Shown here piece after piece: positions 3,961 through 24,699 of a stretch of DNA of 30,183 bases; position 1 is the first letter of the stretch, and each line of letters starts with the position of its first letter. The stretch is taken from positions 1 through 30,183 of the IMG/VR virus record IMGVR_UViG_3300031825_000058; one strand, written 5' to 3'. The stretch comes from a virus. The notes under the pieces were generated by a model. It was given only the letters and a program-made list of their open reading frames with translations. It was not told the DNA's origin and did no database searches. Position numbers and translations under genes: made by a program.

Positions 3961-3975
3961 AAATTTAAGTTACAG

Positions 3976-6538: not shown

Positions 6539-6547
6539 TATGTCAGA

Positions 6548-6590
6548 TCGTAACCAAACACAAGGGCGACCAGAGATGGTCGCTATTTTT
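6548..6590 (+). promoter_or_regulatory. Class A leader element A2
   Basis: The 24-nt block (TCGTAACCAAA to GGGCGACC, 6548-6571) matches A1 and A3 without gaps. The hairpin GCGACCA (6566-6572) / TGGTCGC (6577-6583) closes a GAGA loop, which fits the stable GNRA tetraloop class. T5 (6586-6590) follows after TA. The structure is a weaker terminator than A1 or A3. The scaffold gene starts 64 bases further on, after short upstream ORFs. Confidence 0.7.
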
Positions 6591-6612
6591 GTGGGAAAAA
6601 AATGAGGTTACT

Positions 6613-8759: not shown

Positions 8760-8781
8760 CCCTGAGTTGGTTTCGAGTTTA

Positions 8782-8810
8782 AAGAGCGGTCAGCAATGGC
8801 CGCTCTTTTC
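8782..8810 (+). terminator. Intrinsic terminator after the coat gene
   Basis: AAGAGCGG (8782-8789) pairs with CCGCTCTT (8800-8807), loop about 10 bases, followed by TTTTC and TTATTT. It lies 22 bases after the coat stop and before promoter P3, so the hairpin in leader A3 is not needed to end the coat transcript. Confidence 0.8.
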
Positions 8811-8827: not shown

Positions 8828-8856
8828 TTGACAAAAAAGAAATGCGGTGATAGTAT
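8828..8856 (+). promoter_or_regulatory. Sigma-70-type promoter P3
   Basis: TTGACA (8828-8833), 17-bp spacer, TAGTAT (8851-8856). An overlapping TATAAA at 8854 would have a 20-bp spacer. It is placed between the coat terminator and leader A3. Confidence 0.75.
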
Positions 8857-8866
8857 AAATACATAA

Positions 8867-8909
8867 TCGTAACCGAATATAAGGGCGACCCGCAGGGGTC
8901 GTTTTTTTT
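8867..8909 (+). promoter_or_regulatory. Class A leader element A3
   Basis: The block TCGTAACCGAA to GGGCGACC (8867-8890) aligns with A1 and A2. CGACCC (8886-8891) pairs with GGGTCG (8896-8901) over a 4-base loop, and T8 (8902-8909) follows. The likely start codon is ATG 8920, with no SD between. It lies downstream of P3 and before the gene, as an attenuator would. Confidence 0.75.
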
Positions 8910-8919
8910 GTGTAAATTT

Positions 8920-10449: not shown

Positions 10450-10478
10450 TTGACTGAGGGACGTGGTTTTGATACAGT
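10450..10478 (+). promoter_or_regulatory. Sigma-70-type promoter P4
   Basis: TTGACT (10450-10455), 17-bp spacer, TACAGT (10473-10478). The transcript would start near 10485, in TTAATTAA just before the class B leader. Confidence 0.7.
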
Positions 10479-10491: not shown

Positions 10492-10558
10492 GTTCTTCGT
10501 CCGATTGTCGGACTCTGAACCGCTAAGCCGTCTACGTGACGGTGGGAGCGGTTTTTTT
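10492..10558 (+). promoter_or_regulatory. Class B leader element B1
   Basis: Stem P1: GTTC (10492-10495) pairs with GAAC (10517-10520). Inside lies a 3x3 internal loop (TTC/TCT) and a stem GTCCGA (10499-10504)/TCGGAC (10508-10513). The terminator-like stem P2 is AACCGCT/AGCGGTT with an inner CCGTC-TACGT-GACGG hairpin, then T7 (10552-10558). GAAC and AACC share bases, so P1 and P2 cannot both form completely. The gene start (ATG 10566) is 7 bases after the U tract, without a normally spaced SD. Confidence 0.8.
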
Positions 10559-10565
10559 ATTGTTT

Positions 10566-10991
10566 ATGGCAGACGTAATATTTAATTCATTTAAAAAAGA
10601 TATAGCGAATGGTAACATTGACCTTGATACTGACACTATTAAAGTCATGCTGGTTGCCTCTGCATATACGCCGGATCAGGATTTACATACAAAAAGATCG
10701 GACATCACAAATGAGATTGCTGGTACTGGGTATTCAGCCGGGGGAGCTGCACTCGCAAACAAAACTGTTACCCAAGATAATACTAATAATAAAGGTATAT
10801 TTGATGCTGACGATCTTGTTTGGGCAGCATCAACTCTTACTGCAAGAGGAGCTGTGCTCTATAAAAGTCGGGGAGGATTGGCAAGTGCAGACGAGCTTAT
10901 TTGTTATATCGACTTTGGAGCAGACAAAATATCCGACAATGGAAATTTTACTTTGCAATGGAATGCAGCGGGAATATTGAATTTGAGCTAG
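10566..10991 (+). CDS. Probable virion decoration/structural protein (141 aa)
   Basis: ATG 10566 (MADVIFNSFKKDIANGNIDL) is chosen. An in-frame GTG at 10536 lies inside the leader terminator. The sequence follows a common small phage protein pattern: an N-terminal strand with TIKVMLVASAYTPDQDLH, then SDITNEIAGTGYSAGGAAL, then a beta-rich C-terminus ending in FTLQWNAAGIL. Members with the (N)E(V/I)xGTGYxxGG motif are encoded near phage coat genes and are thought to be structural. The exact role is unknown. Confidence 0.7.
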   Translation: MADVIFNSFKKDIANGNIDLDTDTIKVMLVASAYTPDQDLHTKRSDITNEIAGTGYSAGGAALANKTVTQDNTNNKGIFDADDLVWAASTLTARGAVLYKSRGGLASADELICYIDFGADKISDNGNFTLQWNAAGILNLS

Positions 10992-10993
10992 AT

Positions 10994-11182
10994 ATGTTAA
11001 TCGCAAAAAAAGACATAAATCACAATGGTGAGCTTATAAAAGCTGGTGAAACACTACCGGAAGTTTTTAGTGAAGAAGAAAAACAAGAAATGATTTCAAA
11101 AGAGCAAGCGGAGGAAAAAGTAGGCGCGACAGTGTATGAGAAAAAATGTCGAACGTGTCATCAAGTAATAAAGAATAAATAA
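10994..11182 (+). CDS. Small protein with C-terminal Cys pair (62 aa)
   Basis: ATG 10994, two bases after the preceding stop, opens MLIAKKDINHNGELIKAGET. The earlier in-frame start at 10901 overlaps the upstream gene and is rejected. The N-terminal part resembles short phage head proteins with an INHNGELIKAG-type motif. The C-terminus has ATVYEKKCRTCHQVIKNK, where CxxCH is unlikely to be a haem site in this cytoplasmic context but may bind metal with another chain. No family is firmly recognised. Confidence 0.6.
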   Translation: MLIAKKDINHNGELIKAGETLPEVFSEEEKQEMISKEQAEEKVGATVYEKKCRTCHQVIKNK

Positions 11183-11183
11183 T

Positions 11184-11636
11184 ATGAGATATGCAGCAAC
11201 AGGAAGACGAGCTTATGCAGCGAATAAAACAATCCTCACGATAGGAAATCCTGGGTCTGGTGTTCTTCGTAGGCCAAGGCTTTATTATGTAGGCTTATCT
11301 TCACGAGACGTACCCATTGATCATTCACTTAACTATGACATTCGAAGGTGTACTGCACTTGGTACGTCAACCGCTGTTACACCAGCACCTCTCGACTCAA
11401 ATGATCCTGCATCTGTTGCTGTAGCCGGTGAAAACCATTCTGTAGAACCTACCTACGCATCTGCTACTGAATTTCACGATCAGGCATTTAACTTGAAAGC
11501 TACCGATAAATGGCAAACAGCACCGGAATGGGGAATTATTATACCGGCAACTGCATCAAATGGTTTGGGAATTGAATTGTTAGCTGCTTCGGGGGGTACT
11601 CCAAACATTGAAGCTACTGTTCATTTTGACGAATAA
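11184..11636 (+). CDS. Putative virion structural protein (150 aa)
   Basis: ATG 11184 follows the previous stop by one base. The product begins MRYAATGRRAYAANKTILTI and is rich in Ala, Thr, Ser and Pro with alternating beta-like segments (EWGIIIPATASNGLGIELLA). No enzyme motif, signal peptide or membrane segment is seen. Composition and position between two structural-type genes suggest a capsid surface or connector component. The family is not recognised. Its stop/start junction with the next gene is identical to that before the giant protein at 16974. Confidence 0.55.
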   Translation: MRYAATGRRAYAANKTILTIGNPGSGVLRRPRLYYVGLSSRDVPIDHSLNYDIRRCTALGTSTAVTPAPLDSNDPASVAVAGENHSVEPTYASATEFHDQAFNLKATDKWQTAPEWGIIIPATASNGLGIELLAASGGTPNIEATVHFDE

Positions 11637-11644
11637 ACCTATGT

Positions 11645-11923
11645 ATGTATGGCCGAGACATCAAAAAATCACATGGAGCAATACTCAACGAAAATAACGA
11701 GGTAATTGCAGAAACCCTCATGTGTCCCCATTGTGGACTTCCCTTCATTAAGAAATTTAATAAACAGAAATTCAAGTTAGTTAATCCTGGGGGCCATGTT
11801 AAATCACTATGTCTTATTTGCGGCGGTGAGATTTGCGGAAGAAAACGATGTAGCTTTACTGTTGGTCAGCATATCGCTTTTGAACAAAGACAGGAAATAC
11901 TGGAGAAGGGAGTAGTCGTATGA
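11645..11923 (+). CDS. Small zinc-ribbon-like protein (92 aa)
   Basis: ATG 11645 (MYGRDIKKSHGAILNENNEV) is used. Another ATG at 11641 is in a different frame. Cysteines form CPHC (residues about 28-31), then LCLICGGEICGRKRC (about 57-71). The CxxC...CxxC arrangement is typical of a zinc ribbon. Many phages carry such small proteins in structural operons with unknown function. It is followed by an overlapping ATGA start for the next gene. Confidence 0.65.
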   Translation: MYGRDIKKSHGAILNENNEVIAETLMCPHCGLPFIKKFNKQKFKLVNPGGHVKSLCLICGGEICGRKRCSFTVGQHIAFEQRQEILEKGVVV

Positions 11924-13158
11924 TTTGTAAAATGTTTGGTGGCGACAATACTGCCCCTTCAACAACAGTAGCACAATTTAATTTTATTAACCCTTGTTTT
12001 CAATCATCATGGAGCAGTACCGAAAGTCAACGGCGCAATCCCTTATCAGACGACATGATTTTAACTGGCTGGTCAATTCAGCTTGATGCAGCACCCGGAG
12101 CAGGAAAATCATACACATTTGCTATAAGAGACGATGGAGTAGATGTTGCAACTATAACAATATCAGATACCGCAACCACAGGCAGTTGGTCTGGAAATGT
12201 AAGTATTGCAGCCGGCAGTTTAGTTTGTGTTTCCGCAACTCCATCTGGAACGCCGACTGCATCTACAAATCAATATTGGCAAATCAATTATTCAACAAAT
12301 GGAAATTATTTCCTTATGATGGGTGCATCTTCAGTGCAGCAAGATACTGTAAATACTAAATATCAAAATCCAAATGGCGGACAGGGCATTTTAGGATCTT
12401 CAACTTACACTGATTTTGATTTTCCATGTCCTACAAACATGACTGTGAATAAAATTACTGCCTCCGCAGATGCGGCACCTGGAGCAGCAGCCTCAGGAAA
12501 AAAATGGGATGTAGCGATAGCTCAAAATAATACTAATTTTTTAACAGCCACTATTTTTGAGACGGAAACACAGCATACAACCTCTGGTTCGTTATCTTTT
12601 ACGCCTGGCGACAGCATGGTAATGAGATACCTTCCAACCGCGGGGCCAGCAGCAGCAAGAATAGGCTGGTGTATGTCTATTACCCCTGATGTATCCGGAG
12701 AATGTGTTTTTGGTTTTGGAAACTTTGCTGCTATTGTTTCAGACGCAACTACTCGTTACGAACAAATGTTAAGCATGGGAAATAACGGATGGAATAGTTC
12801 AGAAAATGTTAGATATTTGCATCCACCAGCTGGAGATTACAAAAAGATGTATGTAAGGGTTGGAACGGCACCAGGAGGGACAACTTCCAGAGTTGTAACA
12901 CTTATGGACAATGGTTCTCCAACATCTTTGGCGGCAACAATAACAGGAGCATCGACAACAGGAAGTGACACTACAAATACGGCTACAGTTAGTGGTGGAG
13001 GTAATACCGGTACGCTAAGAATGACAGAGCCGTCAGGGGCGCCAGCTGCATTATCAGGTGTTCATGTAGGCTATGTATTATTTGTTCCACAGCCAACAAA
13101 TCCGCCCCAAATTGAAATGCCAAATATTTTTCCGGTTACTAGACTAATGACAATATGA
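11920..13158 (+). CDS. Repeat-containing beta-rich surface/adhesin-like protein (412 aa)
   Basis: ATG 11920 overlaps the previous stop. Three diverged internal repeats start at an APG motif: around residues 54 (DAAPGAGKSYTFAIRDDG, then VATITISDTATTGSW), 187 (DAAPGAAASGKKWDVAIAQN, then TATIFETETQHTTSGS) and 314 (GTAPGGTTSRVVTLMDNGSP, then AATITGASTTGSDT). Each looks like a jelly-roll or Ig-like beta sandwich about 130 residues long. It is rich in Thr, Ser, Ala, Gly and Asn, with no membrane segment. It is probably a head fibre or other virion surface protein for host or sugar binding, based on composition and context only. Confidence 0.6.
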   Translation: MICKMFGGDNTAPSTTVAQFNFINPCFQSSWSSTESQRRNPLSDDMILTGWSIQLDAAPGAGKSYTFAIRDDGVDVATITISDTATTGSWSGNVSIAAGSLVCVSATPSGTPTASTNQYWQINYSTNGNYFLMMGASSVQQDTVNTKYQNPNGGQGILGSSTYTDFDFPCPTNMTVNKITASADAAPGAAASGKKWDVAIAQNNTNFLTATIFETETQHTTSGSLSFTPGDSMVMRYLPTAGPAAARIGWCMSITPDVSGECVFGFGNFAAIVSDATTRYEQMLSMGNNGWNSSENVRYLHPPAGDYKKMYVRVGTAPGGTTSRVVTLMDNGSPTSLAATITGASTTGSDTTNTATVSGGGNTGTLRMTEPSGAPAALSGVHVGYVLFVPQPTNPPQIEMPNIFPVTRLMTI

Positions 13159-13913
13159 TAATAATTCCATATATCAGACGAGTTTTTTTTTCTAAAGGTA
13201 CTACCCCGCCTTTTATTGTTGCTGGCGGGAGTACTGATGTTGTTGTTAATCCCGCAGTCCAAACAGCCACTTTTTCAATACCCGCAATAACTGTATCGGC
13301 GATCAGAAACCCAACGATTACGCCAGTAGTTCAGTCTATTTCGGTAAGTATTTCCCCAGTTACAGTCTCTGCAATTCGAAATCCCTCGATTGCCGTCGGG
13401 GTGCAAGTTGCAACTTTTTTACAGCCAGCAGCAACGGTCTCTGCGATAAGAAATCCTACTATCCAACCAGCAGTCCAGGGCGTGACTATCTCAATTCCAA
13501 GCGTCACCATCTCAACGGTCAGAAATACGACTATAGCCGCTACTGTCCAAACAGGAACAATATCTCTGCCACCAGTGATAGTCAATGCAATTAGGAGTCC
13601 TGTTGTTCAACCATCGGTAAAGACGATCACCCTTTCAATTTCTTTAGTCAGTGTTCTTGCTGTCAGGAATATTGTTGTTTTACCTCAAGCAAAAAATATC
13701 ACTTTTTCAATTCCTGCAGTAACGGTAAGAATTATAGTTGAGCATACGCTTACAGATCCTGTATTTTACAACAGCTCAATGGCTGAAGGAGCATCAACCG
13801 AGCATCAGCTTGTCAATCCGGCTGTAAATTTGGGGGATCTGGCCGACCCTGCAGTAACTGCGTATTCATTGGCCGACCCTGCAGTAACGCCAGAGGTGAT
13901 TCCAAGTGATTAA
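13155..13913 (+). CDS. Protein of seven tandem 24-residue repeats (252 aa)
   Basis: ATG 13155 overlaps the previous stop (ATGA). After a hydrophobic start (MIIIPYIRRVFFSKG), residues 28-195 are seven repeats of exactly 24 residues, with a consensus of NPxIxPxVQ followed by SIPxxTVSAIR. The strict period and alternating hydrophobic residues suggest a beta-solenoid or beta-prism fibre shaft. The C-terminal 40 residues carry a second short duplication (LADPAVT twice). No homologue is recognised. It is likely a virion fibre or surface appendage co-expressed with the preceding protein. Repeat number could vary by recombination between units. Confidence 0.6.
   Translation: MIIIPYIRRVFFSKGTTPPFIVAGGSTDVVVNPAVQTATFSIPAITVSAIRNPTITPVVQSISVSISPVTVSAIRNPSIAVGVQVATFLQPAATVSAIRNPTIQPAVQGVTISIPSVTISTVRNTTIAATVQTGTISLPPVIVNAIRSPVVQPSVKTITLSISLVSVLAVRNIVVLPQAKNITFSIPAVTVRIIVEHTLTDPVFYNSSMAEGASTEHQLVNPAVNLGDLADPAVTAYSLADPAVTPEVIPSD
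13236..13739 (+). repeat. Seven tandem 72-bp coding repeats
   Basis: The units encode 24 residues each (residues 28-51, 52-75, 76-99, 100-123, 124-147, 148-171 and 172-195 of the gene at 13155). DNA identity between units is moderate, with short perfect pieces such as the AATCCCGCAG and ATCAGAAA types around each NP boundary. A separate perfect duplicate, TGGCCGACCCTGCAGTAAC, occurs at about 13841 and 13871. Confidence 0.8.
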
Positions 13914-13950
13914 TTTATCGTTAAAGCAGTATTGACATTTATAGATTGGG

Positions 13951-13980
13951 TTGTAAAAATGGAGACAGGTATGCTACAAT
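13951..13980 (+). promoter_or_regulatory. Probable promoter for the accessory protease gene
   Basis: TTGTAA (13951-13956), 18-bp spacer and TACAAT (13975-13980) with extended -10 TGC. A TTGACA at 13932 has no good -10 at a normal distance. The following leader (TTCTTACCAAATG) slightly resembles the start of class A leaders but has no U-tract terminator. Confidence 0.5.
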
Positions 13981-14038
13981 TTCTTACCAAATGTTTATGG
14001 AAATTTGTTGGCACTTGGGCGGAAAGGAGCGATAAATT

Positions 14039-14572
14039 GTGGACGCAGTAAAATCATACGAATTAGTAAATAGGGCAATAGGCCTGAGTGAGGGAGTAGG
14101 ATACGTTGATGTAATAAAGCTCGCGAACAACCTCGGTGTTGATGTCTTCTTAAGTACCAATGAGAGCGAAAATTTTAATGCTTGTATTGAAAAAGACTCC
14201 GAAACAAACCGCTATAACATTGTCATCAACCCAGCACAACCATACGAAAGGCAACGATTTTCTATTGCCCACGAGCTTGCACATTTTACCCTTCATAAAA
14301 ACAAACTAGATGAACTTGGTAAACTCAACAGGGACCCAGACGATGTTGTAACAAAAACAGAGGAATCGCACGCCGACCATTTAGCAGCAGAAATTCTCAT
14401 GCCTACACAATTGGTTGAAAAATATACGGAAGAAATTGGATTAAATAAAGACCAGGAGGTCAAGCGTGTAGTAATTGAAAAAATAGCATCATTTTTTAAG
14501 GTTTCGAAGACTGTAGCGGCAATAAAACTTCGAGAGTTGAAGTATTTTGTCCCCTATACTTCTTTTGCATAA
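14039..14572 (+). CDS. ImmA/IrrE-family metallopeptidase (177 aa)
   Basis: The start is GTG 14039 with AAGGAG 9 bases upstream. Residues 76-88 (IAHELAHFTLHKN) hold the zinc motif HELAH (His78, Glu79, His82), and residues 109-122 (ESHADHLAAEILMP) form the helix that supplies the third ligand in this family. These proteases (DUF955) cleave phage or ICE repressors, as ImmA does for ICEBs1, or stress regulators (IrrE). There is no N-terminal HTH fusion and no adjacent repressor gene, so the target must be elsewhere. It has its own promoter and a good SD and sits at the start of an accessory island inside the structural genes. Confidence 0.85.
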   Translation: MDAVKSYELVNRAIGLSEGVGYVDVIKLANNLGVDVFLSTNESENFNACIEKDSETNRYNIVINPAQPYERQRFSIAHELAHFTLHKNKLDELGKLNRDPDDVVTKTEESHADHLAAEILMPTQLVEKYTEEIGLNKDQEVKRVVIEKIASFFKVSKTVAAIKLRELKYFVPYTSFA

Positions 14573-14580
14573 TTCCTGCT

Positions 14581-14847
14581 ATGAAAAAAGGCCTCAAACT
14601 AACTGATGATAAAGATCTACAATCCAGACGAGATAAGGATGATTACCACGTAGAGAGGATAGTAAAATTTACCTGTGCGATTGCTTTTGTAATTGTTGTT
14701 ACTGGTCTTTTGATATTCTTTATGGTTCGCGTTGCTGAAGACCAGGTATTTAGAGATGGCGTCATGGACATCATGAAGCAAAATCTGAGTGGTATTGTCT
14801 TTATGGGTATTTCTATACTTGGTTTAAATAAGTTTTATAAAAAATAA
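14581..14847 (+). CDS. Small two-helix membrane protein (88 aa)
   Basis: ATG 14581 lies 8 bases after the protease stop. A charged N-terminal 30 residues (KLTDDKDLQSRRDKDDYHVE) precede two hydrophobic spans, about 31-52 (FTCAIAFVIVVTGLLIFFMV) and 68-84 (LSGIVFMGISILGLNKF). No family is recognised. Co-transcription with the metalloprotease suggests a linked job such as membrane sensing or immunity, but this is inference from the 8-base spacing only. Confidence 0.6.
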   Translation: MKKGLKLTDDKDLQSRRDKDDYHVERIVKFTCAIAFVIVVTGLLIFFMVRVAEDQVFRDGVMDIMKQNLSGIVFMGISILGLNKFYKK

Positions 14848-14852
14848 AGAGG

Positions 14853-15152
14853 TTACTCATCGTTCCTATCATAATCTTCTCTTACAGTTCTCCAGCGTCC
14901 ATGTTTATGAAAAAATTCATTTTCTCTTTCAGAATCTGAAAAATATTGCCCAACTCGGTGAATAACGTTAAGAGTTGCTACAAATCCGATCAGTATAATA
15001 AAAAATTTTATATCTGAAATAAGTTCAGGAAAAATGTGTAAATTAACCCCTAAAATTATAAAAAAGATGAGACCAAAGTATCCAAGGTACAGCAAGCCAG
15101 CATTTTGCCAATAACGTTTTATATATCCTGGCATTGCATGCTTTTTCCTCAT
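14853..15152 (-). CDS. Small two-helix membrane protein, minus strand (99 aa)
   Basis: The start codon is at 15152 (complement), with MRKKHAMPGYIKRYWQNAGL. Hydrophobic spans lie at about residues 18-37 (AGLLYLGYFGLIFFIILGV) and 47-64 (IKFFIILIGFVATLNVIH). A charged C-terminal tail is rich in Glu, Arg and Asp. No family is recognised. The minus-strand promoter ends so close to the ATG that the mRNA is probably leaderless. Convergent with the preceding plus-strand gene, it belongs to the accessory island. Confidence 0.6.
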   Translation of the reverse strand: MRKKHAMPGYIKRYWQNAGLLYLGYFGLIFFIILGVNLHIFPELISDIKFFIILIGFVATLNVIHRVGQYFSDSERENEFFHKHGRWRTVREDYDRNDE

Positions 15153-15160
15153 TTGAAAAG

Positions 15161-15190
15161 AGTATACCAGATTTTCCTATATCTCTACAA
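15161..15190 (-). promoter_or_regulatory. Minus-strand promoter, probably giving a leaderless mRNA
   Basis: Read on the minus strand: TTGTAG (complement of 15185-15190), 18-bp spacer, extended -10 TGG-TATACT (-10 at 15161-15166). The expected start, about 15154, is only 2 bases from the ATG ending at 15152, leaving no room for an SD. Confidence 0.6.
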
Positions 15191-15199
15191 AACAAATAA

Positions 15200-15228
15200 T
15201 TGACTTTTGTCAGAGGATTTGATTTAAT
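15200..15228 (+). promoter_or_regulatory. Sigma-70-type promoter P5
   Basis: TTGACT (15200-15205), 17-bp spacer, TTTAAT (15223-15228). The following GGTTAATTAATGTTCTT closely matches the segment after P4 (AGTTAATTAATGTTCTT). Confidence 0.7.
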
Positions 15229-15241
15229 AGGGTTAATTAAT

Positions 15242-15308
15242 GTTCTTACTCGGATCTTCCGAGGCTGAACCGCAAACAAGCAAAATATGCTTGGGAGGCG
15301 GTTTTTTT
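15242..15308 (+). promoter_or_regulatory. Class B leader element B2
   Basis: GTTC (15242-15245)/GAAC (15267-15270) enclose a TTA/GCT internal loop and the stem CTCGGA/TCCGAG. P2: AACCGC/GCGGTT outer stem with inner CAAGC-GCTTG hairpin, then T7 (15302-15308). Compared with B1 both inner stems have changed on both sides and still pair. The leader is separated from the structural genes it should serve (15877 on) by the opposing CAP-domain gene. Confidence 0.8.
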
Positions 15309-15350
15309 GTGGGAAAGTCGCTCTTTGAAAATTTAATGGGTAGAAATTAA
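15309..15350 (+). CDS. Possible 13-codon ORF directly after leader B2
   Basis: GTG at 15309, the first base after the U tract, opens MGKSLFENLMGRN and stops at TAA 15348-15350. It sits where the other leaders have their first gene. It may be a leader peptide or the stub of a gene cut by insertion of the minus-strand gene. It is too short to support by composition. Confidence 0.25.
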   Translation: MGKSLFENLMGRN

Positions 15351-15374
15351 TTAGAAGCAAACAATTTAAATTTA

Positions 15375-15860
15375 TCATCCGCCATTTTCTAGATTTGAGA
15401 AGATCTGTAAAGCGTTTCGGCCATCAGTAACGGTACAGGAATACTTATAAAACTTTTTAAGATTTTCAAGATGTACTGGCGAATGAAGCCAACCATTAAG
15501 TGCGTCATTTTCATCAAATGCGTTCCAAATGGAGTTTTCAGAAATCACAGAGGGGTAATTTGAATAATCCCGATAAAAACCAGCGTGGTTATCCTTACCA
15601 ACTTTAATTCTTTTTTGAGCTATCTCACATAAAGTTTCACTTTTTACATAGGGTTGAAAGCCTTGCGAGACTCGCCATTCATTGACGAGTGCCGTAAGTT
15701 TTTCAGCAGAGAGAGGTGGGGCAATAGGATTATACGGATTACTTTTGGGAGTCGGAGTTGGTACAGCGACAGCTTTATCTTTCGGAAGACTTAGGTTTAC
15801 AAAAAAGTAAGCCAAAGACACAAAAACAATTAGGATCAATAGTCCTATAAGTTTATTCAT
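15375..15860 (-). CDS. Membrane-anchored CAP/SCP-domain protein (161 aa)
   Basis: Translation starts at 15860 on the minus strand. Residues 3-24 (KLIGLLILIVFVSLAYFFVNL) form one N-terminal membrane anchor or uncleaved signal. A Pro/Thr linker (about 33-48, VPTPTPKSNPYNPIAPP) follows. Residues 51-155 fit a CAP (SCP/PR-1/CRISP) domain: a first helix LTALVNEWRVSQGFQPY, a core CEIAQKRI, DNHAGFY, then SEN and NGWLHSPVHLENL, which carry the usual conserved His/Glu positions. CAP proteins are extracellular with varied binding or peptidase-like roles. On a phage it is a moron-type cargo gene that could alter the lysogen surface. Orientation against the structural genes supports separate acquisition. 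Confidence 0.75.
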   Translation of the reverse strand: MNKLIGLLILIVFVSLAYFFVNLSLPKDKAVAVPTPTPKSNPYNPIAPPLSAEKLTALVNEWRVSQGFQPYVKSETLCEIAQKRIKVGKDNHAGFYRDYSNYPSVISENSIWNAFDENDALNGWLHSPVHLENLKKFYKYSCTVTDGRNALQIFSNLENGG

Positions 15861-15876
15861 AAGGAGATTATATCAT
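15861..15876. promoter_or_regulatory. Two-way start region: plus-strand SD and minus-strand -10
   Basis: On the plus strand AAGGAG (15861-15866) is the SD for ATG 15877. On the minus strand the same 16 bases hold an extended -10 (TGA-TATAAT, -10 at 15867-15872) whose expected start base is the A of the CAP-gene ATG (15860), implying a leaderless transcript. A weak -35 (GACTTG, complement of 15890-15895) lies inside the plus-strand gene. Confidence 0.55.
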
Positions 15877-16965
15877 ATGATTTACGGTTCAAGTCCAACA
15901 GATCCAAGATACGCAAACTATAAAGGAAGTCAAACATACGCTCCGGTATCACGTCCGGGTGTCAATGTGCCTTTTATAGGAACAGGTAAAACAGCAACTG
16001 GAGCTACAACAGGTGGGGGACAAGTCTTAGGTGCTCAAGCGCCAGCACCTACTCCACAACCAACCAATAACGATAATGGTACCCAAGCGGCGACTGATGA
16101 AGCAGCACGTCGTGAGCAGGAAGTGAGAAGCGCAATTAATACAGGTTATGATGATTATGAAGGTAGACTGCGAGGAATTGAAACTGCAGATAATACATCA
16201 CGTGATGACGAGTTGTTATCGGCCAGTAAAACCTACGATACTATTTTTGGCGGTTTGAATACCCAAAAACAAGTAAATCTTGATAAGCTCGAAGCAAACA
16301 GAGGAGAAGTCAAGACTCGTGAAGCTCGTTCTATCCAGGATCTTAAGCAAAATCTTGGAAATGTTGTCCGAGGTACCTCTATGCAGTTGGGAGCTATGGG
16401 TGCTGGTGATACATCGGCAGCAAATGTGGTAATGCCCTATGCTTACACTAAACTTGCAGGAACACAGGAGGGCACCATAAGAAGACAATCAAATGATCAA
16501 CAGTTTCAAATAGATCAATCCGAGAAAGATACAGAGTTAGAGTTTTCCAAGATGTGGACTCAAACTGAAACAGAAAAAGAGGCAAAGCTGCAAGATATTA
16601 AAACATATTATGGAGATCGAATTCGAAATGTTCAACTTGCTTTGGCTAGTGCTCCTACTGAACGCCAGCAACAGCTTTCAAATTTGAGCCTTGGATTGCT
16701 ACAAGAAGCACGAGCTAAATTATCAGCTATTGAAGCCGAAGATAGACAACGAAAGAGCGATATTAAGGTTTGGGCGACCAACCGTATGTCAGCACTTGAT
16801 GATATGAAGTTGAAACTTGGAGGCAATGCTAATTTTAATCCTAGGGATATAACTTTCCAGGAGCTTAAAATGATGGGGGGCAATGAGGTTGCCAGCTCTG
16901 GTAACGATGCATTTGTTAATCCTATGGCTCTTGCAAAACAAAGACGAGATGAATTTTTTGCATAA
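15877..16965 (+). CDS. Coiled-coil virion/ejection-associated protein (362 aa)
   Basis: ATG 15877 has AAGGAG 10 bases upstream. The first 90 residues are disordered, rich in Gly, Thr, Pro and Gln (TGATTGGGQVLGAQAPAPTP). Residues about 85-310 are long charged helices (EQEVRSAINTGYDDYEGRLR; RQQQLSNLSLGLLQEARAKL) interrupted by a Gly/Ala segment (MQLGAMGAGDTSAANVVMPY). No family is recognised. Its place immediately before the giant protein, with an 8-base gap, resembles P22 gp7/gp20-gp16 pairs of internal ejection proteins. That link is by position and composition only. Transcription from P5/B2 would have to pass the antisense CAP gene. Confidence 0.6.
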   Translation: MIYGSSPTDPRYANYKGSQTYAPVSRPGVNVPFIGTGKTATGATTGGGQVLGAQAPAPTPQPTNNDNGTQAATDEAARREQEVRSAINTGYDDYEGRLRGIETADNTSRDDELLSASKTYDTIFGGLNTQKQVNLDKLEANRGEVKTREARSIQDLKQNLGNVVRGTSMQLGAMGAGDTSAANVVMPYAYTKLAGTQEGTIRRQSNDQQFQIDQSEKDTELEFSKMWTQTETEKEAKLQDIKTYYGDRIRNVQLALASAPTERQQQLSNLSLGLLQEARAKLSAIEAEDRQRKSDIKVWATNRMSALDDMKLKLGGNANFNPRDITFQELKMMGGNEVASSGNDAFVNPMALAKQRRDEFFA

Positions 16966-16973
16966 ACCTATGT

Positions 16974-19900
16974 ATGGCAGCCTTTTTAGATCAACTCAAG
17001 AAAAAAGTTAAAAAGTCGCTCGATGACTTCAATTATGGTGTCAATAATATAAACCCCGCAGGAGACACAAATCCTAATGAAATAGGAAATCAAAACCTTT
17101 GGACCACTCAAGCGGCACCAACGGCGCAAAAAATGATAACGACCGTAAGGAATGCAGGTAATGATGTCGTACAGAAATATACACTGTTTGCTGACCCTAC
17201 ATCTAATAACGGAAGCAATTTTTGGTCTTCTCCAGCTGCAAGCGTTATGGCTGGCAATACGCAACTACCCAAAATACGTTTGAAGCCATTATCAGATGCG
17301 GCAGAAACAATAAAGAATCCAGTTCTTAAATTTGGTGCTGACACTGGCATTGGGATGACAGAGGATCTTCTTAATACACCGCGTAATCTTTTACAAGCTC
17401 CTATTAACATTGCTCGGGACGTTAATACCGGTGAAACTGATCCTAGAAAGTATGCTGGAGATGTAGCGCCCTTTGCTGAGGGGGTGCTTAATATTGGGAC
17501 GCTTGGAGGAGGAACGGTTGCCAAAGGAGTCATAAAACAAGGGTTCAAGCAAGGCTTAAAAGAAGGAGTAAAGCGGGGCGCTATCGAAGGCGTAAAGTAT
17601 GGTGGGGCGTATGGTGCTCTTTCCGGACTCGAATCTGGAAGGAATATCGAAGACTCAGGATCTTATGCCGGCAACCTTGCGATGAATACTGGGACTGGCA
17701 TGGTGGGTGGAGCTGTCATTGGTGGACTTACTGGAGGTATATCTGGTGCGGCAAAGGAAGGATTGCAAAAAACGATTAAAAGTCTTTTTCCCCATGCTTC
17801 AGATGGGCAAGTAGCCCAAATGACAGATGAATATGTCAAAACAGCGCCACAAAGAATATACGCCCGAACAAAAAGTGGTCAATTTTCAACAGGTGATGCA
17901 AAACCTTTTATTCCCGCTGGACGAGACTATGCAGTCCCACGATCAACCCCTATGAAGGTAACTCATTGGATGGATCGGGTAGATCAGGAGTTATTAAATA
18001 ACGTACCTCAACCAGGACTTTCTATAAAAGTGGTTAATAGATCGCCAGTTCAGAGGTCATTATCTGAAGCATTAGGAGCTAATGATCCTCAAAAAGTTCA
18101 CTTTGGAACACTATCCCAAAGTAAATTTGATCAGATTAATAAGTTGTTGACCGAGCAAGGAAAACTTCCTCTAGAAAGCAAAGATATTTATGTGTACCCA
18201 AATGTAATCAAAAAATTACAAGACAAAAGATTATCAGCATCACTTAACCCCGATACCTTGGCAGATATTGCCTACAGCGCGGTACATGGCGATTCTAAGG
18301 TATTACAGAGTAAGTATCCGCAAAATGTGAAAATGATCAAAATCAAAGCAAATAAAGGAATGGTAAATACTGCAATTGTTGGGGAACATAAAGGAGCAGG
18401 ATCACTAAAAACTGTGTATCCAGACTCTGGAATGAAAAAAGCTCTTATGGAAGGCGGAACAAGTAATCCTTCATCGGGTCTTATTGAAGATGCCCCGCAG
18501 AGTCCCGTTTCTGCTGCTCAAAAGAGTTCTGTAGGTAGTATACCACAAAGCACAACCGATGCTCAAATGATGAATGATTTTATGCAGGGAAAGGTTAAAG
18601 ATACTATGACAACAAAACCAGTAACAGGAAAGTTGCCTGTTACTAAGGATGGGAAGATTCTTCTTACTAAGACGGCATTACCAGAAGATGTGTCCAAGCA
18701 AAACATTGATGAATTTTTTAATAATTTGCCTACTTCAGCTATTCAAAAGATCAAAAATTATGCTCGCAACTCTGAGCTTGAGAAGAAAGATTTTATGACA
18801 AAGCAACGCGAGAAGATGGACAATCTTATGAACTATAATCGTATGCTTGCAAAACAAGGCTATTCCTCAGAGCAGATTAGCACAATTAATGCGGGACAGG
18901 CAAGGAAGATACTTGAAAATAAGGTTAGACCAGAAGATTATACTCCCGAGCTTAGGAGTAAGTTCCAATCGGAACTTGACGCGCAATATAATGCAGAAAA
19001 TTTAAACCATGATTTACCTAAACAGCAATGGAACCAAGAAATGGCGGATCTCCGCAAGAGAGCAAGTGAGGAAATGGGTCAAAAAGCTCAAAAAACAACA
19101 GACTCAACACCTAGTGAGGATCCTTCTTGGATTACCGACAATTCCCCTCTTACCCCTGTTAGAGACGTTTTGCAAAAGCAAAATGAAGCCGGAAAGATTG
19201 GGTCAACTTTACCAAGCAGTAAAGATTTACAGGCATTTGACAGGGAAATTAGCAAAAAAGGTATTGATGTAAAGACAAAGGTGGGTGTTCTTGACAAATT
19301 CAGAACGCCTGACCGAGTTTTGCGGAAAATAGGGCTTGGTAAAGAAGCGGACGAACTAAGAGGTGCATATGATAATTATTTGAAGGAGTTGCCGGTTGAA
19401 CTAGATAGAATAACAGAGTGGTCAAAACGCGTTGATAGTAAGGATTCTGCCCGAACAATTTTTCAATATCTCGATGGACAGAAAGTAAATCTGAGCGCCA
19501 ATGACCATGCAATAGCAGAAGAAATAAAAGGTTATCTTAAAAATTGGGCCGATAGACTAGGATTGCCTGAGGATGGGCGTGTGTCTAATTATATTACCCA
19601 TATTTTTGAACAGGATTTTTTACAGAAGGAGTTTGATCCCGAATTAGCAAAACTTATCCGCGATAAAGTTGCAGGATCAGTTTATGATCCTTTTACCCAG
19701 GAACGACTTGGAAAGCAAGGATATATTGAAGATGTGTGGCAAGCATTGGATGCGTATGTCAAAAGGGGAACAAGAAAGGCAAATCTTGACCCAACGCTAA
19801 CTAAAATTAAAGATATTTCAGAAAACTTAGAAGATTCACAATTTAAGTATGTTAAAAACTATATAGATAAGGTAAACATGCGTCCAACAGAAATGGATAA

Positions 19901-21848
19901 CGCAATTGATATTTCTATCAAGCAATCACCAATTGGATATAAATTTGGTCAAAGACCAGTAACAGCTATTACAAGAGGGCTTCGCCAGATGGGTTATCGA
20001 GGTGCGCTTGGTCTAAACATCGGCTCTGCTCTTCGTAATTTATCACAAGGTGCAAATACTTATGCAAAATTGGGAGAAAAATATACAGTATTGGGGTATA
20101 TGAAGATGCTTTCATCTGGCAAACAAGAATTAGAAAAGGTTGGTGTACTTCGAGATGAGCTTATTCAAGATCGTACAATTAATGCAACAAAGAAATTTTG
20201 GGAGAAAACAGATAAGAGATTGTTTTACTTTTTTGAGGGAGCTGAAAGAATCAACAGAGGCGCTGCATACTTCGGAGCAAAACTTAAAGCATTGGATCAA
20301 GGTATGTCTGAAGAACAGGCGATTGAATACGGAAAGAAAATTGTACGAGATACACAATTTACTTTCGGATCAGTAGATACGCCACAGGTTCTACAAAGCG
20401 ATCTGGCAAAAACAATTCTACAATTTCAATCATATAATTTAAAGCAAGCCGAATTTTTGGCTGAGATGGTAAAAAATAAAGAATTTGCTGGACTTGCAAG
20501 ATGGACTGTTGCCAGCCTTGCGTTTACCTACACACTCGGTCAGTTGATTGGTATGAAGCCTGCCGATATAATTCCATTTAGTGGTATTTGGACCGGACAG
20601 ACAAAAATTGGTGAAACTCCAGCAATTCAAGCAGTTGGAAAGCTAAAAGATGCTGCGTTTGGTGGTAAGGATAAGTATGGTAACGATCTAACATTGCAAG
20701 ATCGGGCAGGAAAGGCGATCGATGCTGTAACTCCGATGTTTCCTGGAGGAGTGCAGTTCAAAAAAACCCTACAGGGACTTGATGCCGTGAGAAAGGGGTA
20801 TTCAGAATCTGCGTCAGGTAGAGTGCAGTACATGGTACCTGAAGACCCTGGAACTGCTATAAGAGCGGGTGTGTTTGGGAAAAGTAATCTACCACAAGCA
20901 CAGGAATATTTTAATAAAGATAGAACGCCATTAAGCGATAAGCAAACAGCTGCATTTAAGGCACTTTCTACAGACGAAAAACAATCATATATGGATTCTA
21001 TTTATGGGCAACGGGAATCATCGAAGTTGCTTGATGAAATTAAAAAAAGATTGGAAAAAGGTGAAAATGCTGATGATCTGATTAAAAAAGCAAGTGCAGC
21101 TGAAACGACACCAGTTGAGAACACGGTAAAGTTAAAAGCTCAGGAAGATATTGCAAAACAGAAAGTTGATACACTTGGTGGTGTTCAGACAGTAGGCAAC
21201 AAAATCTTTTTCAATGATAAAGGCTCTGTCAAAACGATTGATCTTTCTGCTCCTACAAAGGGTGAAGGGATAGATGCGTTCGCAAACCAAAATTGGAATA
21301 TAAATAAAGCATTAGAAGTGTATGGGGCTAATCTACCATCAGATAAGAAAGAGGAAGTATATAAAAAATTGGGAGTGGATGGAAGTAGTCTTGAGTATGC
21401 CTATAAAGCTCGAAAGAGTGTTGATATAAAGACTCAATATACAATCAGTCAGGCAAAAACACTTACGCATGACCAGCTACTGGAAAGAATGAAAACAGGA
21501 AGGGTTGAGAGCGTGGCCGGAGATATGTTCATTACCGATAAGGTGCTTGATAACTTAAGGGGTGTCAATTTGCTTTCGGATACAGAAGTAAAGCTGCTTA
21601 AAAAAATGAAGTTTGATAAAAACGGTAACCCGATTGCTAAAAAAACTGGCAGCAAAGGCATAATTATTAAAGAGACAAAGATGGGAAAACGAGTGGTAAT
21701 TAAGCCTGCCAAGGTGCAATTTACACCAATTAAGCTGACAAGAAATGGGAAAATAAATCTTCAAGCTCCAGCGAGAAAAAAACAGGCAAAGATCAAGATT
21801 AAAACACTAACAATGCCAAAAACTAAAATAGCAGCATCGTATAGATAA
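16974..21848 (+). CDS. Giant internal virion/DNA-ejection polyvalent protein (1,624 aa)
   Basis: ATG 16974 follows a TAA-ACCTATGT-ATG junction. Regions in order: amphipathic N-terminus (1-30); Gly-rich stretch at about 160-262 (AYGALSGLESG; VGGAVIGGLTGGISG), like a membrane-inserting glycine zipper; about 352-485 (VHFGTLSQSKFDQI; VKMIKIKANKG; AIVGEHKGAGSLKTVYPDS), which resembles the phage Barnase-EndoU-ColicinE5/D-RelE-like nuclease (PBECR) domains; linker; a long helical region about 740-1290 including GLNIGSALRNLSQGANTYAK, typical of large polyvalent phage proteins; and a very basic C-terminus (KKQAKIKIKTLTMPKTKIA). Such proteins are packed in the capsid and ejected with the DNA. Domain assignments are by eye. 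Confidence 0.7.
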   Translation: MAAFLDQLKKKVKKSLDDFNYGVNNINPAGDTNPNEIGNQNLWTTQAAPTAQKMITTVRNAGNDVVQKYTLFADPTSNNGSNFWSSPAASVMAGNTQLPKIRLKPLSDAAETIKNPVLKFGADTGIGMTEDLLNTPRNLLQAPINIARDVNTGETDPRKYAGDVAPFAEGVLNIGTLGGGTVAKGVIKQGFKQGLKEGVKRGAIEGVKYGGAYGALSGLESGRNIEDSGSYAGNLAMNTGTGMVGGAVIGGLTGGISGAAKEGLQKTIKSLFPHASDGQVAQMTDEYVKTAPQRIYARTKSGQFSTGDAKPFIPAGRDYAVPRSTPMKVTHWMDRVDQELLNNVPQPGLSIKVVNRSPVQRSLSEALGANDPQKVHFGTLSQSKFDQINKLLTEQGKLPLESKDIYVYPNVIKKLQDKRLSASLNPDTLADIAYSAVHGDSKVLQSKYPQNVKMIKIKANKGMVNTAIVGEHKGAGSLKTVYPDSGMKKALMEGGTSNPSSGLIEDAPQSPVSAAQKSSVGSIPQSTTDAQMMNDFMQGKVKDTMTTKPVTGKLPVTKDGKILLTKTALPEDVSKQNIDEFFNNLPTSAIQKIKNYARNSELEKKDFMTKQREKMDNLMNYNRMLAKQGYSSEQISTINAGQARKILENKVRPEDYTPELRSKFQSELDAQYNAENLNHDLPKQQWNQEMADLRKRASEEMGQKAQKTTDSTPSEDPSWITDNSPLTPVRDVLQKQNEAGKIGSTLPSSKDLQAFDREISKKGIDVKTKVGVLDKFRTPDRVLRKIGLGKEADELRGAYDNYLKELPVELDRITEWSKRVDSKDSARTIFQYLDGQKVNLSANDHAIAEEIKGYLKNWADRLGLPEDGRVSNYITHIFEQDFLQKEFDPELAKLIRDKVAGSVYDPFTQERLGKQGYIEDVWQALDAYVKRGTRKANLDPTLTKIKDISENLEDSQFKYVKNYIDKVNMRPTEMDNAIDISIKQSPIGYKFGQRPVTAITRGLRQMGYRGALGLNIGSALRNLSQGANTYAKLGEKYTVLGYMKMLSSGKQELEKVGVLRDELIQDRTINATKKFWEKTDKRLFYFFEGAERINRGAAYFGAKLKALDQGMSEEQAIEYGKKIVRDTQFTFGSVDTPQVLQSDLAKTILQFQSYNLKQAEFLAEMVKNKEFAGLARWTVASLAFTYTLGQLIGMKPADIIPFSGIWTGQTKIGETPAIQAVGKLKDAAFGGKDKYGNDLTLQDRAGKAIDAVTPMFPGGVQFKKTLQGLDAVRKGYSESASGRVQYMVPEDPGTAIRAGVFGKSNLPQAQEYFNKDRTPLSDKQTAAFKALSTDEKQSYMDSIYGQRESSKLLDEIKKRLEKGENADDLIKKASAAETTPVENTVKLKAQEDIAKQKVDTLGGVQTVGNKIFFNDKGSVKTIDLSAPTKGEGIDAFANQNWNINKALEVYGANLPSDKKEEVYKKLGVDGSSLEYAYKARKSVDIKTQYTISQAKTLTHDQLLERMKTGRVESVAGDMFITDKVLDNLRGVNLLSDTEVKLLKKMKFDKNGNPIAKKTGSKGIIIKETKMGKRVVIKPAKVQFTPIKLTRNGKINLQAPARKKQAKIKIKTLTMPKTKIAASYR

Positions 21849-21853
21849 CGATG

Positions 21854-21862
21854 TGCTATACT
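21854..21862 (+). promoter_or_regulatory. Extended -10 promoter P6
   Basis: TGC-TATACT (21854-21862) begins 6 bases after the stop of the giant gene. No good -35 is visible 17 bases upstream, so the extended -10 would have to suffice. It is placed just before leader B3, as in the other units. Confidence 0.55.
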
Positions 21863-21873
21863 ATAAAAAAGAC

Positions 21874-21927
21874 GTTCTTCGCCAGTTAGGCTGGCTCTGA
21901 ACCACGACAGTATTGTCGTGGTTTTTT
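21874..21927 (+). promoter_or_regulatory. Class B leader element B3
   Basis: GTTC (21874-21877)/GAAC (21899-21902) enclose TTC/TCT and a stem GCCAG/CTGGC with a TTAGG loop. P2 is a single, simpler stem, ACCACGAC/GTCGTGGT, followed by T6 (21922-21927). The inner P1 stem again differs from all other copies yet pairs. Unlike B1 and B4, a strong SD (AGGGGG) lies between the U tract and ATG 21947. Confidence 0.8.
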
Positions 21928-21946
21928 GCGTGTTTAGGGGGTAATT

Positions 21947-22621
21947 ATGGATTTAACAGTTGATCAAGCACTAAAACAAATTCATCGAGAATATGAGGGA
22001 GACATTAACTACCCTGATTTTAATGATGACGAAACACAGTTAAGAGTTGGTTATTTAAAAGACTCAATTCGGGAATGGGGCGATAGATTTCCTAAATTTC
22101 GAGAGCTTTTTGCTCTCCTTTCCGATGCTCCTGATGGAACAAAACAAACAAGCGCAGGAGTAACAAAATATAGTTGTCCTACGAATTTTATACGCCCCTC
22201 CACATGGGTTAAAATAGGCGACAAGCGCTTAAGCTACGTTCCTCCAGAAGATATGGAGAAAAAACTGGCAGCAAATGTTAGCGATGAATGGTTTTCAGTA
22301 ATTGGCAGTCCAAGTAAGTATAAAATTGTAATCAATCCGGCTCCCTCAGGAACGAGCACGATTGAATATCCATATTGGAGGATTCCAACGCAGCCAGCGT
22401 TAACTACAGATATTCTTGAAATTTCCCGACCTCTTTTTTGCATATATTATGTTTTATCAAAATTATTTAGAGATGATGATCCAGACCGGGCAAAAGAATT
22501 TGAAAACAAAATGGATGATCAAGAGCGGAAAGAACGCGTTGCACTCGTACAAACCCCAGGTCAATCAAATAGAGTGAACACGCCAGGATATGGTTTTGGA
22601 CAAAAAGCACCTAATGAATAG
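21947..22621 (+). CDS. Putative tail adaptor / head-completion protein (224 aa)
   Basis: ATG 21947 has AGGGGG about 8 bases upstream. The N-terminal helical part (MDLTVDQALKQIHREYEGDI; SIREWGDRFPKFRELFALLS), a central beta region (CPTNFIRPSTWVKIGDKRLS) and a C-terminal helix (AKEFENKMDDQERKERVALV) match the pattern of podovirus portal-adaptor proteins (gp4/gp11-like, tail tubular protein A type). These form a ring under the portal. The call relies on size, the helix-beta-helix layout, and the following gene being nozzle-like. Direct homology is not certain. Confidence 0.6.
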   Translation: MDLTVDQALKQIHREYEGDINYPDFNDDETQLRVGYLKDSIREWGDRFPKFRELFALLSDAPDGTKQTSAGVTKYSCPTNFIRPSTWVKIGDKRLSYVPPEDMEKKLAANVSDEWFSVIGSPSKYKIVINPAPSGTSTIEYPYWRIPTQPALTTDILEISRPLFCIYYVLSKLFRDDDPDRAKEFENKMDDQERKERVALVQTPGQSNRVNTPGYGFGQKAPNE

Positions 22622-22624
22622 ACT

Positions 22625-24601
22625 ATGTCGAGAAAACGAAGTAATTTTAGCCACAACTTAGATGTCTTTAATGGCGGTTCGATGACCATCATTTCAGATG
22701 CAAGACTTGGGAAGCGTTCTGCAAACACTAAATACGCAGTTGAGGCAACTAATATTATGCAGTATGAAGATGGGGTTTGGGGACCCCGCCCGGGAACCGC
22801 GTATTATGGTAAAGCAATCTCTGGCGTTGGCGGCATCGATCATCTAGCTGAGTATACCAAGGTTGATAAATCTCGTGAATTAATCGCTCTTGCTTCAGAT
22901 GGAAAAGGTTACAAAAGCACAGATAATGGAAACTCATGGACACAGATAACAGGAGCAACATGGACGCCGGGAAATCAATTTATATCCATTCAATTCAAAG
23001 GACAATTATGGATTTCAAATGGCGTAGATCCACTTGTTTACTATAACGGAACTCAGTTTAATAGCTTCTCGGCAATTGCAGACCCATCAAATGCTCCTAC
23101 ACTTAGTCGAGGTGCTGGTCTTTCTGCAGGATCCTATACCTACTACTTGCGGTATACTGCGAATAATAATGTAGGTTATACTAATCCATCCCCTGCTTTA
23201 ACGGTTACTGCTAATAAGCCAAGATCGTCATGGAATAAAACTTCAAATGAATATATAGACTATACTATTACTGCTGTTCCCGGTGCTACATCTTATGATT
23301 TGTGGCTTGGTGACATATCAGGACAGGAGTATTACCTTGGGTCAACAACAGACCTAACCTTTCGTGACTTTGGAGATCCTGTCAATTCATTCAGAGAGGC
23401 TCCTGACGATAATACAACAGCAGCACCCAAAATTACTTCAATGGAGCTATCGGGGAACCGTATGTGGGCAACAAAAGATAACGATAATCCCTGGAGGGTT
23501 TATGGAACTGGCACAGGACAGTATCTTGGATATTTTTCTCCATTTTACGGAGGATTTTGGATCGATCTTGAAAAAGGCGGACGCTTTTACCCGACTGCTG
23601 TTGTTCACTATAGAACCGGTAAAGGAGATCCTGTTGCAACAGTACTTTGTTCGTCGGCTGATGGCAACGGAGCAATCTTCCAAATAGATCTAACAACTAT
23701 TACTATAGGAGATGTAAACGCCACTGTTCCAGTAGCCTATAAGTTGGTAGGTTCTAAAGGAGCTGATGCCGTAGGGTCAGTTGTTAAGTTTGGTGATAAT
23801 GTCGGGTTTCTTAATAAGAAGGGTGCATTTTTCTTGAGAAATAAGGAGCAGTTATTTAACGTACTTGCAACTGACGATATGACATCTCCAATCCGCAATA
23901 AGTATGTAAGCTTAAATCAAAAAATGCTTCATAAAGCCGTTGCCTATTTTTCACTTCCCAGAATTTATTTTTGTGTACCAAGCGGAGATGAGAACGATAC
24001 TACGTTTGTTTGGGACGATGAACGAAGAAATTGGACATGGGGGTGGACGATCGGTTTTAAGCAGATAATGGAATATACCGACTCTGATGGCACTACTCAC
24101 CTTTTTGGAATTAGAGGTAATGATAGTCAAATCATTGAGATTTCTGAAAATTTCCTTTCAGATCTTGGACAACCAATAGTTGCTCAGTATAGTTCCCCAC
24201 TTATTCCAGTAGACGCAAAAGACCACAGAACACAAGTGAGAATGAAAGAGTCGATTTTTGAATTTGGAGAACTTCGCGGTTCAGTAAACTGCGCAGTTCT
24301 TGGGAGAACTAAAACAACGGATATTGGTGTATTTGGTTCGGGAACAATATCTTCGTCATTTTCAAATTCTGGTGTAGGAGATGACTATGCCTCTGATGAG
24401 CTAGCTTCCGATACCGGCGATATGCCTAAGACTTTTTCAAGTTCTTCAAGAAAAAAGACAATACGGCCAAAGAAGAGATTTTATGCTTTTAAATATCGTG
24501 TATCAAGTAATGGAGTAAACAATTATTGGAGGTTGTTGAGTATTCAATCTCATGGGGCTTATGTATTTCAGAAGTCCCCCGGGGTCTGGAAAAAAGACTA
24601 G
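22625..24601 (+). CDS. Tail nozzle / DNA-stabilisation-like beta protein (658 aa)
   Basis: ATG 22625 follows the adaptor stop by 3 bases. The N-terminus (NGGSMTIISDARLGKRSANT; VWGPRPGTAYYG) matches the conserved start of podovirus nozzle/stabilisation proteins (P22 gp10, T7 gp12 type), with an RPG turn. Beta-blade-like repeats follow (LIALASDGKGYKSTDNGNSW; FKGQLWISNGVDPLVYYNGT), a fibronectin/Ig-like insert at about 157-260 (LSAGSYTYYLRYTANNNVGY), and more beta structure to the end. The protein would form a hexameric propeller-like nozzle attached to the adaptor and close the DNA channel. Confidence 0.75.
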   Translation: MSRKRSNFSHNLDVFNGGSMTIISDARLGKRSANTKYAVEATNIMQYEDGVWGPRPGTAYYGKAISGVGGIDHLAEYTKVDKSRELIALASDGKGYKSTDNGNSWTQITGATWTPGNQFISIQFKGQLWISNGVDPLVYYNGTQFNSFSAIADPSNAPTLSRGAGLSAGSYTYYLRYTANNNVGYTNPSPALTVTANKPRSSWNKTSNEYIDYTITAVPGATSYDLWLGDISGQEYYLGSTTDLTFRDFGDPVNSFREAPDDNTTAAPKITSMELSGNRMWATKDNDNPWRVYGTGTGQYLGYFSPFYGGFWIDLEKGGRFYPTAVVHYRTGKGDPVATVLCSSADGNGAIFQIDLTTITIGDVNATVPVAYKLVGSKGADAVGSVVKFGDNVGFLNKKGAFFLRNKEQLFNVLATDDMTSPIRNKYVSLNQKMLHKAVAYFSLPRIYFCVPSGDENDTTFVWDDERRNWTWGWTIGFKQIMEYTDSDGTTHLFGIRGNDSQIIEISENFLSDLGQPIVAQYSSPLIPVDAKDHRTQVRMKESIFEFGELRGSVNCAVLGRTKTTDIGVFGSGTISSSFSNSGVGDDYASDELASDTGDMPKTFSSSSRKKTIRPKKRFYAFKYRVSSNGVNNYWRLLSIQSHGAYVFQKSPGVWKKD

Positions 24602-24606
24602 AAGAG

Positions 24607-24615
24607 TGTTATACT
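24607..24615 (+). promoter_or_regulatory. Extended -10 promoter P7
   Basis: TGT-TATACT (24607-24615) begins 5 bases after the nozzle stop, without a good -35. The arrangement closely matches P6 upstream of B3. Confidence 0.5.
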
Positions 24616-24631
24616 GGGGTTAAGTTAAAAA

Positions 24632-24699
24632 GTTCTTCCCTCGCAAGGCGAGGTCTGAACCGCTAAGCCGTCTACGTGACGGTGGGAGCGGTTTTTTTT
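24632..24699 (+). promoter_or_regulatory. Class B leader element B4
   Basis: GTTC (24632-24635)/GAAC (24657-24660) enclose TTC/TCT and the stem CCTCGC/GCGAGG. From TCTGAACC (24654) through the seventh T (24698), 45 bases are identical to B1 (10514-10558). T8 follows (24692-24699), and GTG 24700 or ATG 24709 starts the gene without an SD. Confidence 0.8.

Follow-up and report, generated by a model that had tools for sequence, protein, structure and literature searches.

Control of late genes through antitermination is best known from lambdoid phages. In phage lambda, the strong promoter PR' yields by default a short transcript, 6S RNA, which ends at the intrinsic terminator tR', and the virion genes lie downstream. 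Here we describe a layout that is comparable by sequence prediction, on which all promoters and terminators below are based, in IMG/VR virus record IMGVR_UViG_3300031825_000058. The window analyzed is the entire record of 30,183 bases, which may be a genome fragment; it encodes a terminase, an SU10-like portal, a P22-type coat protein, an amidase and an integrase, together with probable internal virion and tail proteins. Seven short leaders of two kinds, class A and class B, are distributed over it, each with one predicted intrinsic terminator between a promoter upstream and a gene downstream, which is the layout of an attenuator. With somewhat better than even confidence, we read these leaders as conditional transcription attenuators heading the virion operons.

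The order of promoter, short RNA, terminator and late genes is what the window shares with lambda PR'/Q. It differs in having seven short leaders per genome as opposed to one of about 190 nucleotides (nt), and in that the leader RNA is structured and conserved. Q works via a DNA site together with a sigma-dependent pause (PMC9378689 and PMC7171158 mention Q and pausing of this kind), whereas here neither PHROG nor Pfam gave a Q-like match for any of the proteins scanned, which come from records that are possibly incomplete. The put elements of phage HK022 are RNAs of about 70 nt that consist of two stem-loops and lie close to the 5' end of the phage transcripts, and they act without protein via the beta' zinc-binding domain of the polymerase (PMC9378689). 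Class B leaders are similar in size and also have two stems, and a first-pass annotation of the window had offered a put-like system as one option. However, in all copies the second stem is itself an intrinsic-terminator-like hairpin followed by 6-8 U, and several copies precede virion operons, whereas put occurs twice, on early transcripts. Membership in the put family was rejected because it requires two non-terminating stems with an effect on later terminators. Some leaders resemble lambda nut sites (boxA plus boxB, recognized with N and Nus factors) in having a GUUCUU/GUCUUU-like stretch beside a hairpin, a likeness to boxA that was drawn post hoc, and one subgroup has, like boxB, a conserved loop above covarying stems. 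Unlike nut, the leader abuts its own terminator, the class B loops are variable, and no N homologue or other arginine-rich N-type protein was recognized among the proteins scanned. Bacterial attenuators controlled by proteins or ligands resemble class B in the predicted exclusive pairing at the terminator base, worth about 2-3 kcal/mol. They differ from the present leaders, which belong to phage virion operons, occur in several copies per genome, have had their sequence replaced between lineages with the position kept, and in class B overlap the terminator by only 3-4 base pairs (bp).

Four class B copies had been proposed from the sequence alone, and an exact search for GTTCTT-N-KCTGAACC recovered precisely these, with four matches in the record (B1 to B4 at 10492, 15242, 21874 and 24632), all on the + strand, and none for the backwards control. 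In every copy, GUUC is followed by a 3x3 internal loop and an inner stem of 6 bp capped by 3 nt, after which come GAACC, a strong hairpin and 6-8 U. Two more copies, which form a tandem with a spacing of 72 nt and are in synteny with B2, were found in a related phage, IMGVR_UViG_3300008255_004732 (G001). Over the six copies, all six pairs of the inner stem vary on both sides, which bears out the covariation claimed for it. Inner-stem cells are paired in 96.7% of cases, compared with 78.4% in shuffles and 18-53% with a slid partner, and the covariation score is 0.65 versus 0.26. The inner stem of the terminator covaries too. B1 and B4 share an identical terminator half of about 44 nt (10517-10558 and 24657-24698), so this covariation depends on B2 compared with B1/B4 and on the short forms. 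Despite their identical terminator halves, B1 and B4 match at only 5 of 15 positions in the inner sequences of the first stem (stem 1), which suggests a recent exchange with a breakpoint between both stems. The outer GUUC/GAAC helix is invariant save for one change of U-A to U-G; in G001 copy a, GAAC has become GAGC, a change with which pairing is retained in stem 1 (U-G) as well as in the terminator (G-U). As proposed, the base of the terminator overlaps GAAC so that the two stems would compete, over 3-4 bp only. Closing GUUC/GAAC costs 1.9-2.7 kcal/mol in all six copies, and the terminator would then lose the 3-4 bp nearest the U-tract.

The statement that no described RNA family has this layout stands: Rfam comparison of the window and seven relatives gave no match above the gathering score and a single chance match under the threshold. 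In a pattern scan of 2.9 million viral contigs, class B was found beyond the window only in G001; most of the 33 matches of the first scan resemble chance, and none of 108 additional matches inspected combined the inner stem with the terminator arm. Models of class A and class B found nothing convincing outside their few phages.

Class A was identified by a repeat search at 3977, 6549 and 8868 of the window. Its order is promoter, CGUAACC (CGUUACC in A1) near the predicted RNA start, a short spacer, an AGGGCG terminator hairpin and a U-tract. The same three genes (portal, 6655 and 8908) are preceded by class A in G001 and in a further contig, L059, giving nine copies in total, and the pattern scan of the 2.9 million contigs found no other carriers. 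The hairpin sequences differ among the three phages, and pairing is retained. Both the window and G001 have class A on the head side and class B on the tail side. The A3 site reads in all three as capsid-operon terminator, promoter, and leader with its own terminator. Since the capsid operon is already terminated upstream, the second terminator would act on the promoter's own transcript or on residual read-through. The possibility that the hairpins simply end the operon upstream of them as its 3' terminators was rejected because the A3 site has a separate one, and that they serve the - strand antisense genes beside B2 was rejected because there is no U-tract in that direction.

For a wider comparison, 41 podovirus-like viral contigs were gathered through searches with the portal and the 15877-type protein. 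Most are fragmentary, there are some overlaps and near-duplicates among them, and all were recruited by homology to the window phage, so that they are non-independent draws; portal identity goes down to about 31%. This divergence and the altered leader sequences speak against a single leader having simply been inherited. The layout was scored where an intergenic terminator follows a good promoter at a distance of 15-75 nt and is itself followed by the ATG of a gene at most 70 nt away. It occurs in 44 cases in 27 of the 41 contigs, all on the coding strand, versus one case among 32 random viral contigs and none in 35 loci with related coat genes, so that the attenuation layout proposed phage-wide is found across the lineage. 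Of 54 such terminators, 35 have a promoter score of at least 10.5 upstream, compared with 1.0% in dinucleotide shuffles. A terminator near an ATG is by itself undiagnostic (13/28 in the coat-gene control loci), and the promoter criterion removes these cases. There are also promoters without a leader terminator, for example at 13955/13975 in the window, ahead of a non-virion gene, and at 31690/32470 in contig G002. Leader terminators precede portal (14/19), adaptor (18/26) and 15877-type genes (10/37), 42 of 82 altogether, as opposed to none of 44 operon-internal capsid, internal-virion and tail genes (Fisher p = 9e-11); judged by eye, such a leader precedes 22 of the 26 adaptor genes. Leader sequences diverge between lineages, and the position at operon heads is kept. 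The absence of covariation-supported homologues elsewhere, which had been named as evidence against the first-pass proposal, did not materialize, given the G001 pair and the dozens of contigs that have the layout with other leaders.

No relatives were found in a portal search of bacterial genomes, and a capsid search of bacterial genomes gave distant, mostly proteobacterial loci only, which served as the coat-gene controls. Among the named phages of the phage collection searched, none has a portal or tail relative of the window proteins, and the tail proteins of the related contigs gave one partial match at most. Patescibacteria, among whose genomes the first-pass annotation had suggested looking for homologues, are a putative host only.

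The stretch from start site to terminator is more structured than shuffled sequence (mean -6.2 vs -3.3 kcal/mol; 41 leaders, Wilcoxon p = 4e-7), often with a hairpin immediately upstream of the terminator. In a subgroup of seven leaders from six contigs, this stem varies at 6/6 pairs beneath a constant loop, NNRAGUG, with the caveat that the rows were hand-cut to line the loops up, which favors that structure. Covarying stems with a constant loop are the pattern expected of an RNA hairpin that may be recognized through its loop. In class B, invariance lies in the flanks and the loop is variable. Six-mers of the GTTCTT/GTCTTT type occur in 10 of 40 leaders compared with 0.9 in shuffles; the pattern was picked after inspection, and this boxA-like enrichment, for which the likeness lies in a UCUU stretch ahead of stem 1, is only a lead.

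We infer that termination takes place at these leaders and that it is conditional. By default, polymerase would start at the strong promoter, make a leader of about 55-75 nt and halt at the intrinsic terminator. A regulator, phage-encoded or from the host, would act on the nascent leader and allow read-through into the portal, capsid and tail genes. In class B, the switch would be the outer part of stem 1: a factor binding the invariant 3x3 internal loop would stabilize GUUC/GAAC, the terminator would be deprived of 3-4 bp next to the U-tract, and termination would fail. The two classes would form separate sets of targets, class A for the head genes and class B for those on the tail side. In most other leaders stem 1 is merely adjacent to the terminator, so that a factor acting on the polymerase is as likely there.

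Several observations weigh against this mechanism. Class B is known from two phages, class A from three, and the switch idea thus rests on few sequences. The outer GUUC/GAAC element is conserved as sequence, and its pairing is without independent covariation support. Stem 1 overlaps the terminator arm only in class B and, by eye, in the contigs G002 and L128. The device is not universal, since in G002 the promoters of the portal and the 6655-type gene lack a leader terminator. The first-pass annotation had placed each class B copy ahead of the first gene of a virion module. B2 instead faces an antisense CAP-domain gene first (15375-15860, - strand), with the + strand gene about 570 nt on, and its tandem counterpart in G001 has the same arrangement. 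No NusG family match was obtained in G000-G003 (four records, possibly incomplete), and no early regulator common to the class A and class B phages was found. G001 encodes a basic protein of 80 amino acids at 14396-14638, which is not shared and is unproven as an N-type candidate.

The lack of a recognized factor would also fit terminators that are constitutively leaky and set a fixed low output of strong promoters, stem 1 being a spacer or 5' stabilizer, and stem 1 is indeed weak or absent in several leaders, including those of class A. We nevertheless consider this unlikely, as the NNRAGUG loop, the invariant flanks of class B and the CGUAACC-type motif of class A are hard to explain without recognition, and it would be wasteful to place terminators of such strength, about -10 to -25 kcal/mol, behind near-consensus promoters. 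The short distance to the start codon raises another question, namely whether hairpin and U-tract could form a translation or mRNA-stability element beside the AUG and no terminator. In 27 of 54 cases the hairpin is at most 15 nt away from the ATG, and a Shine-Dalgarno sequence, by a loose criterion, accompanies 7 of 33 such starts compared with 167 of 444 elsewhere. However, a stable hairpin at about -8 should impede ribosome binding, B2 has no + strand virion gene for about 570 nt, and where the ATG is distant (L112, L118, L122, L130, B3 and G001 A3) it is the hairpin and not the ATG that the U-tract accompanies, although the terminator caller required this. We regard such an element as quite improbable.

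RNA-only processive antitermination, in which the leader would bind polymerase and resist adjacent and later terminators without protein, would account for the resemblance in size, two stems and promoter-proximal place to HK022 putL (PMC9378689), and stem 1, just upstream of the terminator, would sit outside the RNA exit channel. Yet both stems of put form the active element whereas the second stem here is the terminator, always-on antitermination in cis would make the adjacent terminator pointless, and stem sequences vary widely among lineages; this, too, has little probability in our judgment. Finally, the units could be genes for short stable RNAs of about 60-75 nt acting in trans, their position at virion genes being secondary. 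Promoter and terminator would bound a complete transcript, and an antisense gene follows B2 as well as the tandem pair of G001. A trans-acting RNA should keep its sequence, however, and it is the operon-head position that is kept across very divergent phages and not the sequence of the RNA, which makes this very improbable. Conditional attenuation at operon heads is the reading that we retain, and the features of the window that bear on it are collected in Table 1.

Table 1. Predicted promoters, leaders and terminators of the window
Feature	Positions	Strand	Remarks
A1	3955..4024	+	TATAAT; CGUUACC at 3977; terminator hairpin; U8 abutting portal ATG (4025)
A2	6509..6592	+	TTGACA-18-TACATT; CGUAACC at 6549; terminator; precedes gene 6655-7452
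Ordinary terminator, end of major-capsid operon	8781..8808	+	upstream of A3 promoter
A3	8828..8912	+	TTGACA-17-TAGTAT; CGUAACC at 8868; second terminator; precedes gene 8920-9486 (8908 gene)
B1 promoter	10450..10478	+	TTGACT, 17 nt, TACAGT; preceding TG (extended -10)
B1 stem 1	10492..10520	+	GUUC 10492-10495 / GAAC 10517-10520, enclosing 3x3 internal loop and 6-bp inner stem with 3-nt loop
B1 intrinsic terminator hairpin and U-tract	10518..10558	+	ATG about 8 nt further (gene 10566-10991)
B2 promoter	15200..15228	+	TTGACT, 17 nt, TTTAAT; preceding TG
B2 stem 1 and terminator	15242..15308	+	antisense CAP-domain gene next; + strand virion gene from 15877
B3 extended -10 (TGCTATACT)	21857..21862	+	11 nt upstream of GUUC
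B3 stem 1 and short terminator	21874..21927	+	precedes tail adaptor gene 21947-22621
B4 extended -10 (TGTTATACT)	24610..24615	+	
B4 stem 1 and terminator	24632..24699	+	precedes gene with ATG at 24709; terminator half identical to that of B1

Further elements were observed around the leaders. Between A2 and the 6655 gene, the window contains an additional conserved element (6615-6645), a hairpin of the form GGUCGACCCC...GGUC, which is possibly a translational or autoregulatory site; it also occurs in G001 (about 19690-19740), just past 11278 in L059, and in G002 (about 7715-7745, there GACCC...GGGUC). The product of 8920-9483, beside the coat gene, is rich in proline and glutamate with a C-terminal Rho_N/SAP-like domain (E = 2.5e-5). 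Between the portal gene and a scaffold-like gene, 6241-6525 encodes a small protein with a Cys-Cys-His-His stretch that is kept in 19 related contigs. Two - strand genes, 14853-15152 and 15375-15860, flank copy B2; the CAP domain of the latter's product (Pfam PF00188, E = 0.0012) identifies a gene that is on the - strand in six related contigs and stands immediately before the 15877-type gene in the window and G001. Strong promoters at 5326-5345, 15376-15390 and 32470-32490 of G002 have their -10 element only about 6-9 nt upstream of an ATG, which suggests that these phages make leaderless mRNAs. Window positions 1-105, at the left end of the contig, form a tandem repeat of the TGCTTGGGCTGCTAGGGCTGCTGAGGC type. 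The left end of G001 (L050, 1-3900) contains bacterial genes for phosphoenolpyruvate synthase and RsmI and a HolA-like open reading frame, so that G001 appears to be an integrated prophage whose bacterial flanks could name the host.

In conclusion, we propose for these phages an analogous layout of late control, with several operon heads per genome, in a group without isolated relatives in the searched collection. Tentatively, and with more doubt than conviction, we extend the proposal to the whole lineage: operon-head attenuators may have had their RNA recognition element swapped between lineages with the position kept, each being the target of a separate antitermination factor that is specific to the phage and belongs to an undescribed type, and one genome may use two codes, class A for the head and class B for the tail side. 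Attenuation at operon heads predicts short leader RNAs and late-stage read-through. The leaders described here would provide exact target sites for seeking an antitermination factor, and a comparative set from which its recognition code may be read.

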